Source: Deltaproteobacteria bacterium (lineage in GTDB: Bacteria; Myxococcota_A; UBA796; GCA-2862545). Taken from it: a DNA stretch of 64,000 bases. The stretch lies in NCBI GenBank assembly GCA_006226595.1, contig SBGP01000095.1, positions 1 to 64,000 on the forward strand, read 5' to 3'. The notes beneath the pieces were generated by a model, which saw only the letters and a list, made by a program, of their open reading frames with translations, did no database searches and was not told where the DNA came from. The translations under genes were made by a program, and so were the position numbers. Positions 35,166 through 47,261 of this stretch are shown piece after piece. How positions within the stretch are numbered: position 1 is the first letter of the stretch; each line of letters opens with the position of its first letter.

Positions 35166-36821
35166 ATGCGCACGCTCGCTCTCACCGCGGCACTCGCTCT
35201 GCTGCCCACCGCCGAGGCCCTGGCCTGTGGCGGCTTCTTCTGCAACCGCGACTTCCCCATCGATCAGGCGGGCGAGACCGTGGTGTTCGCCGTCGACGAG
35301 ACCGAGGGCCTGGTCACGACCCACGTGTCCATCGCCTACGAGGGCGCGAGCGAGGACTTCGCCTGGATCGTGCCGGTCCCGCGCCAGCCCGAGCTGTTCC
35401 CGTCCTCCGATGCGATGTTCTCGGGCCTGGGCGCGCGGACGAACCCCACCTTCTGGCTCAACTACGAAGTCACCGGCAACTGCTGGAACTACTACGACTA
35501 CGACATGGCCGCGTCCGACTCGGGCAACGGCGGTCCGGTCGCCGAGGACGACGGCAGCGGCGGCGTGACCATCGTCGCCGAGGAGCAGGTCGGCCCCTAC
35601 GACACCGTCGTCCTCCAGGCCACCGACGCCGGCGAGCTGCTCACCTGGCTCAACGACGCGGGCTACGACCTGCCGACCACCCTCGACAGCGTGCTCGCGC
35701 CCTACCTGGCGGACAACCAGTACTTCGTCGCCCTCAAGCTCTCCGCGGGCCGCGACACCGGCGACCTCGTGCCCCTCGGCATGCGCTACGCCGCGACCGC
35801 CGCGAGCATCCCGATCCAGCTCACGAGCATCGCCGCGACCCCGGACATGCCGCTCACCGTGTACGTGCTCGGCGAGAACCGCTCGGTGCCCGACAACTAC
35901 CTGCACGTGCGCATCAACGAAGCCGCCATCGACTGGTTCTCGGCCGGGTCGAACTACGCGGATGTCATCTCGCTCGCCGCGGACGAGGCCGGTGGCCACG
36001 CCTTCGCGACCGACTTCTCCGGCGCCACCGCGGACCTGCGCGGCTCGCTGTTCAACGAGTCCGCGTACAACGCGAGCGCGCTGAACGCCGCGACCTCGCC
36101 CTACGAGTGGCTCGACAACCTGCTCGGCATGGGGCTGCCCCCGTCCGCCGCGCTGCTCCGCGTGTTCGAGGAGGTCATCCCGTTCCCGGCCGCCCTCGGC
36201 AAGCAGGGCATCACCCCGCAGAACTTCTACGACTGCCTGTCCTGCTACTCCGAGTACGTCGACGAGACCGCGTTCGACGCAACGGCCGCGACCACCGTGC
36301 TCGAGGAGCAGCTGATCAACGGCCTGCGCGAGGCCGAGGCCATGCTCGCGGCGCATCCGCACATGACTCGCCTCACCTCGTCGCTCGACGCTGACGAGAT
36401 GACCGTCGACCCGATGTTCGTGTTCAACGGTGACATGACCCAGACCCAGAGCAACTACCACCAGGCCACGCTGCGCATGGACTGTGGCGTCGGCGAGGGC
36501 TGGTCCGAGGCCGAGCGCACCCTGGTGCTCTCCGATGGCCGCGAGATCCGCCTGCCCTCCGAGGACTGGGTGAACAACAACGGCACCTCCGAGTTCGAGC
36601 TCATGGAGGATGGCGGACTGACCGAGCCCGCGGCCATCGTCATCGAGGACCTCGGTCGCGAGGGCCAGGGCGAGGTGATGTTCGACTTCCGCGACGAGGC
36701 CGAGGACATCGCGCGTCGCTTCCGCCGTGCGGGCTGCGGCTGTCAGACCGCCTCCCCCATGTCCGCGCTGGGCTTCGGCCTGCTCGTGCTTCCCTTCGTG
36801 CTTCGCCGTCGTCAGGACTGA
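35166..36821 (+). CDS. DUF2330 surface protein, copy 1, with MYXO-CTERM-like tail
   Basis: A 551-residue protein with signal MRTLALTAALALLPTAEALA, then CGGFFCNRDFPIDQAGE, the Cys-rich opening of DUF2330. The body has conserved DFAWIVPVP, VVAEEQVGPYDTVVLQA and PQNFYDCLSCYSEYVD. The tail CGCQTAS, a hydrophobic span and RRRQD match a MYXO-CTERM sorting signal: Cys, membrane helix and basic end, processed by a myxosortase and lipid-linked. The function of DUF2330 is unknown. GGAGGG precedes the ATG. It is followed after 11 bases by a paralogue. Confidence 0.88.
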   Translation: MRTLALTAALALLPTAEALACGGFFCNRDFPIDQAGETVVFAVDETEGLVTTHVSIAYEGASEDFAWIVPVPRQPELFPSSDAMFSGLGARTNPTFWLNYEVTGNCWNYYDYDMAASDSGNGGPVAEDDGSGGVTIVAEEQVGPYDTVVLQATDAGELLTWLNDAGYDLPTTLDSVLAPYLADNQYFVALKLSAGRDTGDLVPLGMRYAATAASIPIQLTSIAATPDMPLTVYVLGENRSVPDNYLHVRINEAAIDWFSAGSNYADVISLAADEAGGHAFATDFSGATADLRGSLFNESAYNASALNAATSPYEWLDNLLGMGLPPSAALLRVFEEVIPFPAALGKQGITPQNFYDCLSCYSEYVDETAFDATAATTVLEEQLINGLREAEAMLAAHPHMTRLTSSLDADEMTVDPMFVFNGDMTQTQSNYHQATLRMDCGVGEGWSEAERTLVLSDGREIRLPSEDWVNNNGTSEFELMEDGGLTEPAAIVIEDLGREGQGEVMFDFRDEAEDIARRFRRAGCGCQTASPMSALGFGLLVLPFVLRRRQD

Positions 36822-36832
36822 TCGGAGGTCCC

Positions 36833-38476
36833 ATGCGCTCGCTCGCTCTCGCCACCGCCCTCGTGCTCATGCCCACCGCTGAGGCCCTCGCCTGCGGCGG
36901 CTTCTTCTGCAATCGCGAGTTCCCCATCGACCAGGCCGGCGAGGAGGTCGTGTTCGGCGTCGACGACAAGCTCGGCACCGTCACCACCCACGTCTCCATC
37001 GCCTACCAGGGCGCGAGCGAGGACTTCGCGTGGATCGTGCCGGTGAGTGAGCAGCCGAGCCTGTTCGCGTCGAGCGACGCGCTGTTCTCGGCGCTGCGCA
37101 GCCGCACCGAGCCACGCTTCTCGCTGCAGTACGACTACGCGGGCGAGTGCAACTGGGACATCCTCTACGACGACGAGTCCGCGCTCGACCCGCAGGCCGA
37201 CAACGACGGCGTCACCGGCGGCGTGAGCGTGGTCGCCGAGGAGCAGGTCGGGCCCTACGACACCGTCATCCTCCAGGCGACGAGCTCCGCCGAGCTGCTC
37301 ACCTGGCTCAACGGCGCCGGCTATGACCTGCCGAACACGCTCGACAGCGTGCTCGCGCCCTATGTCGCCGACGGCCAGTACTTCGTCGCCCTCAAGCTCT
37401 CCGCGGGCCAGGACACCGGCGACCTCGTGCCCCTCGGCATGACCTACCGAGCCAGCGCGGCCAGCGTGCCGATCCAGCTCACCTCTGTCGCCGCGACGCC
37501 GGACATGCCGCTTACCGTGTACGTGCTCGGCGAGCACCGCGCGGTGCCCGACAACTACCTGCACGTGCGCATCAACGAAGCCGCCATCGACTGGTTCTCC
37601 GGCGGCTCGAACTACCGCGACGTCATCTCGCAGGCCGCCGACGAGGCCGGCGGACACGGCTTCGCCACCGACTTCTCGGGCCCCACCTCGCAGCTCGTCG
37701 GCGCCGTGCTTCCCACCGGCTACAGCCGCGCCAACCTCGATGGCGCCGCGGATCCCTTCGAGTGGATCGAGACGCTCATGGGCCTGGGCCTCCCGCCGAG
37801 CGCGGCCCTCCTCGGTGTGCTCGAGGAGGCGATTCCGTTCCCGCAGGCCCTCGCCGACCAGGGCCTGACCCCGCAGAACTTCTACGACTGCCTTCGCTGC
37901 TACACCGAGTACGTCGACACCACCACCTGGGACGCCACCGCGGCCACGGACATCCTCGAGCAGGACCTGATCCAGGGCATGCGCGACGCCCAGGCACTGC
38001 TCGACGCCTACCCGCGGCTCACGCGCATGACCTCTTCGCTCGACGCGCAGGAGATGACCGTCGACCCGATGTTCGTGTTCAACCCCGACATCGGCCAGGA
38101 CGTGCCCAACCAGCGCTACGCCACGCTCCGCTGGGACTGCACCAACGGGGAGGACTGGAGTCGCGCGACCCGCACGCTCATCCTCTCGGACGGTCGTGAG
38201 ATCCAGCTGCCGTCCCTCGAGGACACCTGGGCCAGCGGCGGCACCGAGTTCGACGCGATGGAAGACGGCGGACTCACCGACCCGGCGGCCATCGTCATCG
38301 AGGACCTCGGCGTCAGCGGCGACGGCGACATGATGTTCGACTACCGCGACCAGGCCGCGGAAGACGCCGCGAACTTCGGCCAGGAGGGCGTCGGCTGCGG
38401 CTGCAACACCGCACCGGGGCTCGGGGGCGGGCTGCTGCTCGGCCTGCTTCCCCTCGTGCTCCGCCGCCGCGACTGA
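36833..38476 (+). CDS. DUF2330 surface protein, copy 2, with MYXO-CTERM-like tail
   Basis: A 547-residue paralogue of the preceding protein, nearly collinear: same signal, CGGFFCNREFPIDQAGEEV, DFAWIVPV, VVAEEQVGPYDTVILQA, PDNYLHVRINEAAIDWFS and PQNFYDCLRCYTEYVD. Differences cluster in the loop after the first third and before the tail. The C terminus is CGCNTAPGLGG, hydrophobic span, RRRD. A tandem duplication followed by divergence is clear. The ATG follows CGGAGGT. Confidence 0.88.
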   Translation: MRSLALATALVLMPTAEALACGGFFCNREFPIDQAGEEVVFGVDDKLGTVTTHVSIAYQGASEDFAWIVPVSEQPSLFASSDALFSALRSRTEPRFSLQYDYAGECNWDILYDDESALDPQADNDGVTGGVSVVAEEQVGPYDTVILQATSSAELLTWLNGAGYDLPNTLDSVLAPYVADGQYFVALKLSAGQDTGDLVPLGMTYRASAASVPIQLTSVAATPDMPLTVYVLGEHRAVPDNYLHVRINEAAIDWFSGGSNYRDVISQAADEAGGHGFATDFSGPTSQLVGAVLPTGYSRANLDGAADPFEWIETLMGLGLPPSAALLGVLEEAIPFPQALADQGLTPQNFYDCLRCYTEYVDTTTWDATAATDILEQDLIQGMRDAQALLDAYPRLTRMTSSLDAQEMTVDPMFVFNPDIGQDVPNQRYATLRWDCTNGEDWSRATRTLILSDGREIQLPSLEDTWASGGTEFDAMEDGGLTDPAAIVIEDLGVSGDGDMMFDYRDQAAEDAANFGQEGVGCGCNTAPGLGGGLLLGLLPLVLRRRD

Positions 38477-43844: not shown

Positions 43845-46800
43845 GTGCTGTTCTTCCTCGCCATCACCGCCCACGCCATGGACCTCGTCGAGGTCCGCTA
43901 CGAGGTCGCCGTGGACGGGCCCCTTGCCGAGGTGGTGGTCGCGCAGACCTTCGAGAACCGCAGCGGACGGCCCATCGAAGAGGTGTACGCGTTTCCCCTC
44001 CACGAGCAGGCCGCCGTCGATGGCATGCGCATCGAGATCGGCACGCGCATCGTGCAGGGTGAGGTCCACGAGCGGCAACGCGCGACCGCCGCCTACGATC
44101 AGGCCGTCGCACAGGGCCACACCGCGGCGCTGACGACGCAGGACCGCCCGAACCTGTTCGCGCAGCGCGTCGGCAACATCCCGCCCGGTGAGAAGGTCAC
44201 GGTGCGCATGCGCGTCGTGCAGCCCGTGCCCTACGTCGACGGCGAGTACGAACTGGTCCTGCCCCTCGTGGCCGGACCGCGCTTCGTGTCCACCGCTCGC
44301 TACGATCGCGGCGAACCCCTGTTCGCACAGCCCCTCGCCGGTCCCACCCACGCGAGCATCGACGTGGAGATCGCCAGCGCCGTGCCCTTCGTGCGCTTCG
44401 AGAGCAGCCACGAGCTCGACCTCGCCGCCAGCGGCGACACGGCGTGGGCCCAGACCGCGGAGGTGCCGCTCGATCGCGACTTCACCCTGCGGTGGCAGGT
44501 GGCCAGCGAGCAGCCGCAGGCCGGGCTCTATGTCGACGAGGGCCACGCGCTCATCGCCCTGGAGCCGCCTCCCGCCGTGCCCCGCCACCGCGAGGTGCCC
44601 AGGGAGTGGATCTTCGTCATCGACCAGTCGGGCTCGATGAGCGGCCAGCCCATGGCGCTGGTGAAGCAGGCGGCGCAGGCCCTGCTCGACACCGCGGACG
44701 GCCGCGACAGTCTGCGCATCGTCCGCTTCGGGAGCACCGTGGAGGCCGATCTGCGCGCTCACCCGCTGGTGCCCGAGACGCAGGCGCGTGCACGGGCCAC
44801 CCTCGACGCCCTCGCGCCCGGCGGCGGGACCTATCTGCTCGAGGGCGTGCGCGAGGCGCTGCGCACCCGCGACGACCCGATCCGCGAGCGGACCATCGTG
44901 TTCATGAGCGACGGGCTGATCGCCGACGAGCGCGCGGTGCTCGCGACCATTGCCGACGAGCTCGTTGACGCGCGCCTGTTCGTGCTGGCCGTGGGCCCTC
45001 TGCCCAACCGCTGGCTGCTCGCCGAGATGGCGCGCTTCGGAGGCGGACTGGCGGCGTGGATCGAGCCGGGCGACGACCCCCGCGCGGTCGTGGAGGACTT
45101 CGTCGACCGCATCGACGAGCCCGTGCTCACCGACATCTCCGTGGACTGGGGAGACTGGGAGGTCGACGGCCCCTGGCCGAGCCGCCTGCCTGCCCTGTAC
45201 GCGGGACAGCCGCTGCTCACCGGCGCGCGCGTTCGTCGCCAGGGCACGACCCCCGTCGCCGTCCGAGGCTGGACCGGCGAGGGTCCGTTCGAGGCCCTGC
45301 TCACACCCGTCGACGCCGCATCGGAGCGCTCGGTCGCGAGCACGTGGGCCCGCCAGACCATCGCCGAGCTCGAGCGCGACCAGGTGTGGGGCGACACCCC
45401 CGAGCTCGCCGCGCGCATCCTCGACACGAGCCTCGAGTACCAGGTGCTCTCCCGCTACACCGCGTTCCTGGCGATTGCCGAAGGCGAGATCGAACGCCAG
45501 GCCGAGATGGCGAAGCGCCGCGTGATCAAGACGCGACAGAGCCTGAGCCACGACGACGTCATCGAGGTCGTTGCCAAGCGCCGTGCGGTCGACGTGGAGG
45601 CGGTCGAGGCGGGCACGGTGCTCACACGCGAGGTCCTGCAGCGCATTCCCGCCGGGCGCGACTACCAGTCGGCCGTGCAGATCGCCGCGGGGGTGAGCTC
45701 GAACCCGAACCTCGGCAGCAGCGCGAGCAACGAGAACACCTACCTGCTCGACGGCGTGTCGATCACCGACCCCGTCACCGGCACGTTCTCGCTGAACTTC
45801 AACTTCGACGGCATCGAGCAGGTCGACGTATTCACCGCCGGCATCCCGGTCGAGGTGCCCGGCGCCACGCGCGTGGTCGAGGTGGTCACGCGGAGCGGGA
45901 CAAACCGGCTCGAGGCCAGCGCCGAGGTCTCCCAGGGCCTGCGCTCCGACCCGTCGCTGCGGGTCGGCTACGGCGGCCTCGCCGTGGGAGGACCGCTCAT
46001 CCGCGACCGCATGTGGCTGCGCGGCACCTACCACTTCGACCACTCGGCCATCGCGGGACGGCAGTTCTCCGGGCATCGCGGCACCGCCAAGCTGACCACT
46101 CAGCTGAACGCAGCGCACCGCCTCTCGCTCACCGGCGCCTTCGATCTGGCCGAGGTCCGCGGCGACGTGGACGTGCATCAAGACAGCGGACTCGGCACCT
46201 TCCGTTGGCAGTGGTTCATGTCGCCCGACGCGAACGTGCAGACCTCCGCCAGCGTGCAGCGCCTGGTCCTCGACGACGAGTGGCGCACCCGGCGACAGCT
46301 GCGCACCGGGCTCGTCGCCTTCGTCGGCAAGCACGACCTCGGCTTCGGCGCCGACCTCGAAGACCTCTCCTGGAAGCTCGACGCGGCCCGCGCCGAGTCC
46401 TGGCTGGGCATCCCGGTGGCCGCGCAGGGCGGGAGCACGCGCGTCGGCCTGTACGCGAGCGAGAACTGGGTCCTGGGACGCGGCTTCGTCCGGGGGGGCG
46501 TGCGCACGGACCTCACGCTGGGGCGCGCACACGTCGCGCCACAGCTGTACGTCGGGCTCAACCCGACCCACAAGAGCAAGCTCGCGCTCGGCGCGGCGCG
46601 CCGCTTCGGGCACCTCGGGCTGGTCAGCGCCGAGGTCGCACCCGAGCTCGGTCTATCGCGCGTGGACGAGGTCCTCGCGCTCGCCGAAGCGGAGCTGGCC
46701 GAAGACCTGGCGCTGAGCCTGTCGGGCACGTGGCGGGACCACTCGCGCATCCCCGCGGTGGGAGGAACGCGAACCCGATTGTCCGCCCTCGCGAGCGAGG

Positions 46801-47261
46801 TGGTGCTCCGCAAGGTGCAGAGCCGACGATGGTTCGCCGAGATCAGCTGGCGCACGGTGCACCGCATGGTCGAGCCCGGCGAGACCCTGCTCTACGACGG
46901 CAGCCTCGACGCCTTCCGCCATCGACTTCGCGGCGTGGCGACCTGGGACCTGCCCACCGAACCCTGGCGCGTCCGTCTCGGCGTGAGCGGCAGCGTGAGT
47001 GCCGTGCCGCTGGGAGTGGTCCGTCCGGACCCGGTGACCGGCGTCATCCCCAACGATGGACGCTGGACCGGCGGGGTTCGCCTGTCCCAGGGCGTCGACC
47101 TGCGACGACGACGCCAGCTATGGCTCGATCTCGAGGGGCAGTACTTCTCGCTCCTCGACAATGTCCCCCGCGGCACGTGGATCGCCGCACAGCGCGCCCT
47201 TCCCCTGGTTCGTGGATACGAAGGCTTGCGCTGGCAGGCCACCGTCCGCTTCGAACTCTGA
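43845..47261 (+). CDS. VIT-VWA protein fused to a TonB-dependent receptor-like plug and barrel
   Basis: An 1138-residue chain of unusual layout. Residues 10-130: VIT domain (VAQTFENRSGRPIEEVYAFP, YDQAVAQGHTAALT). Residues 250-430: von Willebrand A domain with intact MIDAS (VIDQSGSMSG, then Thr/Asp positions downstream). From about 570, VIEVVAKRRAVD and QRIPAGRDYQSAVQIAAGVS, NTYLLDGVSITDPVTG and VVEVVTRSGTN mark a TonB-dependent receptor plug of the Oar kind; beta strands fill 690-1138. The leader MLFFLAITAHA is very short and lacks a basic start, and the end is RFEL rather than aromatic. GTG start; no upstream in-frame alternative. It may be cotranscribed with LysR. Confidence 0.8.
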   Translation: MLFFLAITAHAMDLVEVRYEVAVDGPLAEVVVAQTFENRSGRPIEEVYAFPLHEQAAVDGMRIEIGTRIVQGEVHERQRATAAYDQAVAQGHTAALTTQDRPNLFAQRVGNIPPGEKVTVRMRVVQPVPYVDGEYELVLPLVAGPRFVSTARYDRGEPLFAQPLAGPTHASIDVEIASAVPFVRFESSHELDLAASGDTAWAQTAEVPLDRDFTLRWQVASEQPQAGLYVDEGHALIALEPPPAVPRHREVPREWIFVIDQSGSMSGQPMALVKQAAQALLDTADGRDSLRIVRFGSTVEADLRAHPLVPETQARARATLDALAPGGGTYLLEGVREALRTRDDPIRERTIVFMSDGLIADERAVLATIADELVDARLFVLAVGPLPNRWLLAEMARFGGGLAAWIEPGDDPRAVVEDFVDRIDEPVLTDISVDWGDWEVDGPWPSRLPALYAGQPLLTGARVRRQGTTPVAVRGWTGEGPFEALLTPVDAASERSVASTWARQTIAELERDQVWGDTPELAARILDTSLEYQVLSRYTAFLAIAEGEIERQAEMAKRRVIKTRQSLSHDDVIEVVAKRRAVDVEAVEAGTVLTREVLQRIPAGRDYQSAVQIAAGVSSNPNLGSSASNENTYLLDGVSITDPVTGTFSLNFNFDGIEQVDVFTAGIPVEVPGATRVVEVVTRSGTNRLEASAEVSQGLRSDPSLRVGYGGLAVGGPLIRDRMWLRGTYHFDHSAIAGRQFSGHRGTAKLTTQLNAAHRLSLTGAFDLAEVRGDVDVHQDSGLGTFRWQWFMSPDANVQTSASVQRLVLDDEWRTRRQLRTGLVAFVGKHDLGFGADLEDLSWKLDAARAESWLGIPVAAQGGSTRVGLYASENWVLGRGFVRGGVRTDLTLGRAHVAPQLYVGLNPTHKSKLALGAARRFGHLGLVSAEVAPELGLSRVDEVLALAEAELAEDLALSLSGTWRDHSRIPAVGGTRTRLSALASEVVLRKVQSRRWFAEISWRTVHRMVEPGETLLYDGSLDAFRHRLRGVATWDLPTEPWRVRLGVSGSVSAVPLGVVRPDPVTGVIPNDGRWTGGVRLSQGVDLRRRRQLWLDLEGQYFSLLDNVPRGTWIAAQRALPLVRGYEGLRWQATVRFEL

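Follow-up and report, generated by a model that had tools for sequence, protein, structure and literature searches.

TonB-dependent receptors are classed as transporters or signal transducers, and extensions at their N-terminus are few: a survey covering 34,893 such proteins distinguishes five N-terminal architectures, none of which, in the accessible part of that report, contains a VIT or VWA domain (PMC6434023). The VIT-VWA module is best known from animal blood proteins, and the PDB chains that resemble it by sequence are those of the vault protein PARP4 and of the inter-alpha-trypsin inhibitor heavy chains. The authors who described vWA force transducers have proposed a link between a vWA domain in the periplasm and a proton-driven system of the TonB/Tol type, according to the accessible part of their paper (PMC12204202). 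A search of the literature other than preprints and subscription papers found no description of VIT or VWA fused to a TonB receptor.

The stretch analyzed here (the window) comprises 64,000 nucleotides of contig SBGP01000095.1 (assembly GCA_006226595.1), and its gene at 43845..47261 places the VIT-VWA module on what appears to be an outer-membrane receptor, a fusion seen in a few uncultured Myxococcota. In this fusion and its relatives the barrel is shortened on its outside and conserved beside its periplasmic turns, and the Ton box with the first half of the plug most closely resembles the Oar-like receptor encoded in the same genome. Such a protein may hold its VIT-VWA head in the periplasm and be coupled to TonB.

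The fusion gene and its distribution

The gene is a single open frame that starts with GTG, ends with TGA and encodes 1138 residues. From the N- to the C-terminus, the protein consists of a short leader, VIT, VWA with an intact MIDAS, Ton box, plug and beta-barrel:

43845..47261, plus strand: whole fusion gene, 1138 codons and stop (open frame and homologues)
43845..43877, plus strand: short leader MLFFLAITAHA, a probable Sec signal with cleavage after AHA (translation and short leaders of relatives)
43887..44210, plus strand: VIT domain, aa 15-122 (PF08487, 3.7e-32)
44610..45053, plus strand: VWA domain, aa 256-403 (PF13768, 2.3e-11)
44622..44645, plus strand: MIDAS motif DQSGSMSG, aa 260-267 (translation and alignment of relatives)
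45555..45575, plus strand: Ton box DVIEVVA, aa 571-577 (from alignment with resident Oar-like receptors at their Ton boxes)
45555..45803, plus strand: Ton box and first plug half, aa 571-653, which tracks the same-genome receptor (62/83 identical to P_G000, rank 1/19; tree)
45804..45908, plus strand: second plug half, aa 654-688, eroded (12/35 identical to P_G000)
45909..47258, plus strand: beta-barrel with shortened extracellular hairpins, aa 689-1138, 22 strands by homology (alignment, hairpin counts, profile match to the colicin I receptor)

In Pfam searches, VIT (111.2 bits, cut-off 26.5) and VWA_3 (44.4 bits, cut-off 27) pass in the window protein. Plug (PF07715) is found at aa 591-666 with an E-value of 0.0043 and 18.0 bits, under its cut-off of 23.9; no barrel model, PF00593 included, matches at E<=0.1, and CarboxypepD_reg (PF13620), which the paralogues L022 and L029 possess, is absent. 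Given the sub-threshold Plug score, the protein is best termed derived from TonB-dependent receptors (TBDT-derived), and not a Pfam-defined one. The original prediction of VIT and VWA joined to such a receptor in one chain holds. In a relative in genome G020 (L002/L021, contig JAHQVJ010000069.1), VIT, VWA_3, Plug (26.9 bits, cut-off 23.9), TonB_dep_Rec_b-barrel (27.9, cut-off 27) and OMP_b-brl_4 (31.5, cut-off 30) all pass.

Other details of that prediction fared unequally. The MIDAS is intact, with DQSGSMSG, GGT and SDG all present and kept in all four aligned relatives; the frame is indeed continuous over its 1138 codons, and codon use is uniform (GC3 0.925 before the junction and 0.899 after it). 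The very short leader had been called odd for an outer-membrane protein but turns out to be a family trait, since relatives have equally short ones (MWIVLVAAALA in L009, MLFLLFSNLALA in L005 and VILSLMLPSALA in L100). A terminal Leu had been called odd as well; L002 ends in F and L009 in T, so that loss of the aromatic residue at the end occurred more than once.

The layout recurs among 58 relatives in G020 (46% identity over query residues 6-1136, full length), G015 (43%, cut by a contig end) and G013 (31%, residues 6-1058), and no stop or frameshift occurs in any copy. With the window's own genome, the fusion is present in four genomes of a single Myxococcota family, that is, in 4/63 genomes of the order, 4/71 of the class and 4/377 sampled in the phylum. 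Receptor barrels were found on no further VIT-VWA proteins in the phylum sample; scoring there was confined to the top two candidates from each genome, a design by which weak fusions could be missed. Large VIT-VWA frames at 17 other loci were considered as fusions and rejected, having tails of 130-283 aa with no receptor match by blast, as was L008 (G019), which ends at a contig edge and groups with standalone proteins.

Descent of the receptor half and its pairing with resident receptors

The resident paralogue L022, from the window's own genome, contains CarboxypepD_reg, plug and barrel, and its alignment with the fusion extends from the Ton box as far as the C-terminus. When the receptor half of the window protein was combined with four Oar-like receptors, the resulting profile matched the colicin I receptor in the plug and mid-barrel. 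The receptor half descends from Oar-like receptors, and VIT-VWA lies where L022 carries CarboxypepD_reg, in agreement with the earlier view that the module had taken the place of the usual regulatory beta domain.

The fusion barrel is collinear with those of 17 Oar-like receptors across all 11 hairpins, which were delimited by periplasmic-turn anchors from L022; the orientation of the turns is taken from homologous receptors of known topology and from the colicin I receptor profile match. In the 17 receptors hairpin lengths are nearly constant, totaling 667-682 residues. The hairpins of the window protein measure 33, 36, 38, 34, 49, 30, 46, 41, 46, 49 and 49 residues (total 451) and those of G020 measure 35, 36, 39, 40, 49, 32, 46, 41, 46, 49 and 49 (total 462), while G013 totals 430 with a poorly aligned middle part and G015 is truncated. 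Ten of the 11 fusion hairpins are shorter than their counterparts in every one of the 17 receptors, the exception being the eleventh; the loss amounts to about 220 residues. Seven hairpins (L2, L5 and L7-L11) are equal in length between the window and G020, at an identity there of only about 40%. Conservation is asymmetric: within 9 residues of the periplasmic turns, identity in fusion pairs is 53% versus 23% elsewhere (p 4e-11), 36% versus 22% (p 0.002) and 44% versus 31% (p 0.004), whereas receptor-receptor controls are even (56/57% and 46/48%). Strand-like alternation beside the turns was equaled in 0 of 300 shuffles for the window, 0 for G013 and 12 for G020, where it is weaker; three receptor controls gave 37, 28 and 2.

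The plug behaves differently in its two halves. Alignment shows the Ton box motif in the window, G020 and G015 and an altered version in G013, and the tract formed by the Ton box and the first plug half (about 85 residues) matches the same-genome receptor at 62/83 positions in the window, 70/87 in G020, 68/86 in G013 and 60/85 in G015. In 4/4 fusions the same-genome receptor ranks first of 19 for this tract (71-80% identical), exceeding the 47-51 matches with other fusions, with a negligible lead over the receptor of a genus-mate for G020 (69/86); when the Ton box is left out, the window's own receptor comes only seventh for the first plug half. The second plug half retains 12/35 identities with the same-genome receptor in the window and 18/35 in G020, and together with the barrel it exhibits no same-genome preference (ranks 18, 10, 17; 6, 11, 13; 8, 2, 2).

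Trees reflect the same division. That of the tract joins each fusion to its resident receptor, with bootstrap/SH-aLRT supports of 92/84, 93/87, 92/92 and 94/90 (the genus-mate falls within the last group). One clade holding all fusions is rejected for this tract (approximately unbiased (AU) test, p 0.0005). That of the remaining receptor half places three fusions together (99/100) and does not reject all four (p 0.36), so that common descent of the long-branched G013 is not rejected. Among 50 VIT-VWA rows placed in one tree, those of the window, G020 and G015 group together with support 99, and the five fusion-type rows, of which L009 and L024 are long-branched, are compatible with one clade (constrained log-likelihood 11.3 above the free search). 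By these comparisons, the VIT-VWA half and the barrel support common descent of the fusions, unlike the plug tract.

Independent fusion in each genome, considered as an origin of the plug pairing, was rejected for the window and G020: their barrels match at 120/309 positions, a higher proportion than in any comparison with a receptor (at most 99/334 and 120/345), and they have hairpin lengths in common. Recent gene conversion or chimeric assembly was also rejected, the tract DNA being only 71-78% identical. Synonymous codons are no more alike in own pairs than in others, which implies that the match lies at the protein level and is old, whether from ancient conversion or from co-evolution. That one plug half matches the resident receptor in 4/4 genomes points to a common partner, and this pairing, drawn from few cases (four) and few columns (85), is regarded as the most informative new observation.

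First plug halves are also encountered elsewhere. In two other families, L111 (G332:C97) and L112 (G352:C13) have only this half behind VWA (E-values 1.2e-9 and 5.5e-5), and no TonB receptor barrel was found in either. The L111 piece is nearest to a receptor of its own genome (65%), just above that of a genus-mate (64%).

Possible roles of the fusion

The reading favoured here, to which about an even chance is assigned, is that the fusion is a TonB-coupled outer-membrane anchor that holds VIT-VWA in the periplasm and acts as a tether or switch, not as a nutrient importer. An Oar-like TonB-dependent receptor would have been duplicated, a VIT-VWA head would have replaced the N-terminal CarboxypepD_reg domain of the duplicate, and its outside loops would have been cut back. 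The barrel would then anchor the protein in the outer membrane with the head in the periplasm, TonB would engage the Ton box between head and plug, and inner-membrane force would act on the VWA head and the weak plug half; the ligand of such a tether or switch, possibly held by the MIDAS, would likewise be periplasmic.

Since the Ton box (45555-45575) lies between VWA and plug, the head should be periplasmic. Of the two sides originally envisaged for an adhesion-type module, periplasm or surface, the former is favoured and the latter unsupported, the outside being the shortened side of the barrel; the word "adhesion" derives solely from the VWA name. In BtuB, TonB unfolds a mechanically weak plug half formed by about 50 residues after the Ton box, the other plug half is proposed to signal ligand occupancy, and the weak half touches the ligand too in BtuB and FhuA, as stated in the accessible part of PMC5413942. 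With the first plug half kept, the second half and the outside eroded, and the head presumably periplasmic, a tether or switch without import is favoured. TonB_C matches occur in 5/5 genomes searched, 14 of them in the window's genome (G000). The same genome has three loci in which TonB_C and Plug apparently share a frame, with the TonB-type domain N-terminal to the plug (G000:C63:75129-76025, G000:C33:31179-31772 and G000:C96:54300-55157). In this protein the parts of a receptor have been naturally separated, with the ligand-facing outside reduced and the TonB-facing inside kept, which offers a natural way to ask whether pulling by TonB can be put to uses besides transport.

Several observations weigh against this reading. 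Structure prediction from a two-row alignment (window and L021) reached a pLDDT (a per-residue confidence score) of only 28.4 for the whole protein and 28.8 for the receptor half, values too low to model barrel closure. No neighbouring gene is common to the window, G020 and G013, nor is any conserved; a LysR gene lies 30 bases upstream of the fusion in the window only. Receptor-half branches are long, and relatives erode further (in G013 the Ton box is altered and gaps break up the second plug half), features that fit decay as well. A second VIT-VWA protein of a fusion genome, L024 (G020:C139), has a long tail, cut by a contig end, that matches no plug or receptor model, and is possibly a far-eroded fusion.

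A working transporter of the Oar kind, in which a periplasmic VIT-VWA adaptor would bind a protein destined for TonB-driven export or accept one that has been imported, appears rather unlikely. The plug is largely kept, as such a role would have it, but the extracellular hairpins have lost about 220 residues, the second plug half is eroded, and the N-terminal extension of Oar itself is dispensable for PopC secretion, as far as the accessible part of PMC6434023 describes it.

It is unlikely that the receptor half is a relic, with VIT-VWA at work and the barrel a decaying tail or a plain anchor without TonB coupling. The long branches, the L024 tail devoid of a plug match and the Plug score under cut-off in the window would all suit such decay; however, hairpin lengths are equal in two distant relatives, strand alternation is kept, the Ton box and first plug half remain 71-80% identical to those of the same-genome receptor, and every copy is free of stops and frameshifts.

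The pairing of the tract admits a further interpretation, distinctly unlikely as a whole, in which the fusion is no longer a transporter and acts on, or competes with, the cell's own Oar-like receptor as a VWA-controlled dominant regulator, its tract occupying the same TonB or plugging the resident barrel in trans. The tract would then have stayed matched to the resident receptor through old gene conversion or shared-partner co-evolution, and the plug pieces without a barrel in L111 and L112 would represent the minimal form.

A surface adhesin, whose barrel translocates VIT-VWA to the outside, is very improbable: the VWA has its MIDAS and Myxococcus has VWA adhesins (CglB), but the module is N-terminal to a Ton box that must face the periplasm, and no receptor is known to export its N-terminus. 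An artefactual join of two genes by misassembly or by sequencing error (the latter named in the original prediction as a possible refutation), conceivable in a draft of 117 contigs, can be dismissed, because the same layout in the independent genomes G020, G015 and G013 excludes it, along with the uniform GC3 and the continuous frame.

Standalone relatives and known systems

The nearest VIT-VWA sequences are standalone proteins of sister families (L004-L007, L034 and L035; 38-43% identical), which have a C-terminal region of about 190 aa where the fusion has the receptor; tails of other VIT-VWA proteins measure about 56-282 aa and also contain no receptor. Directly after the standalone gene lies a propeller-type gene in 6/6 loci from four genera, two of four such genes passing the Reg_prop Pfam cut-off. 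This gene is present in G019, G045 and G028, and no match to it was found in the 4/4 fusion genomes, G001 or G010. At the six loci (L096-L101) the standalone gene and its propeller-type neighbour overlap or abut, forming a conserved pair. Envelope modules occur at non-fusion VIT-VWA C-termini elsewhere in the phylum, a context in line with the favoured reading: of 68 such C-termini, selected for close relationship and not randomly, 20 match the AgmX/PglI TonB-type domain, 15 a TonB C-terminal model and one OmpA; the tail of L138 matches the AgmX/PglI domain at 116 bits. Elsewhere in the window, two neighbouring genes (35166-36821 and 36833-38476) have similar starts, and the second matches DUF2330.

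The fusion shares its VIT-VWA core with the marine sortase target family TIGR03788 (NCBIfam), scoring 383.2 bits in the window, under the equivalog cut-off of 551.65. It carries a receptor where the sortase target has a C-terminal tail, and sortase (PF04203) matches were found in 0/5 genomes searched. The vWA force transducers, as described in the accessible part of PMC12204202, have an inner-membrane anchor and lie on the motor side, whereas the fusion would belong to the outer membrane and the receptor side. The window translation lacks the SHLS string of their inner-membrane helix and has a leader-like N-terminus instead.

A full-size counterpart exists in Pontibacter sp. G13 (WP_311587986.1, annotated SusC/RagA), a plasmid-encoded protein of 1564 aa (L151:3884-8578) that joins signal, VIT, VWA, Ton box, plug and a SusC-type barrel in one chain. 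It is the only one of 72,556 plasmid records to cover at least 80% of the Pontibacter query. Its receptor half and that of the window give no significant alignment, which indicates that the two fusions arose independently. Between VWA and Ton box, the Pontibacter protein contains an extra weak plug-like piece (TYYIDGVKV, E 0.0017), as if a half-plug had preceded the full fusion. Given Pontibacter, the VIT-VWA-receptor architecture is not unique. In alignment, the fusion is collinear with the Oar subclass from which it derives (Myxococcus Oar, in the accessible part of PMC6434023) through Ton box, plug and barrel as far as the C-terminus; the fusion differs in having VIT-VWA instead of CarboxypepD_reg, shortened outside hairpins and an eroded second plug half. 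What is new is a collinear but shortened barrel that keeps its identity beside the periplasmic turns, and a plug tract paired with the receptor of the same genome.
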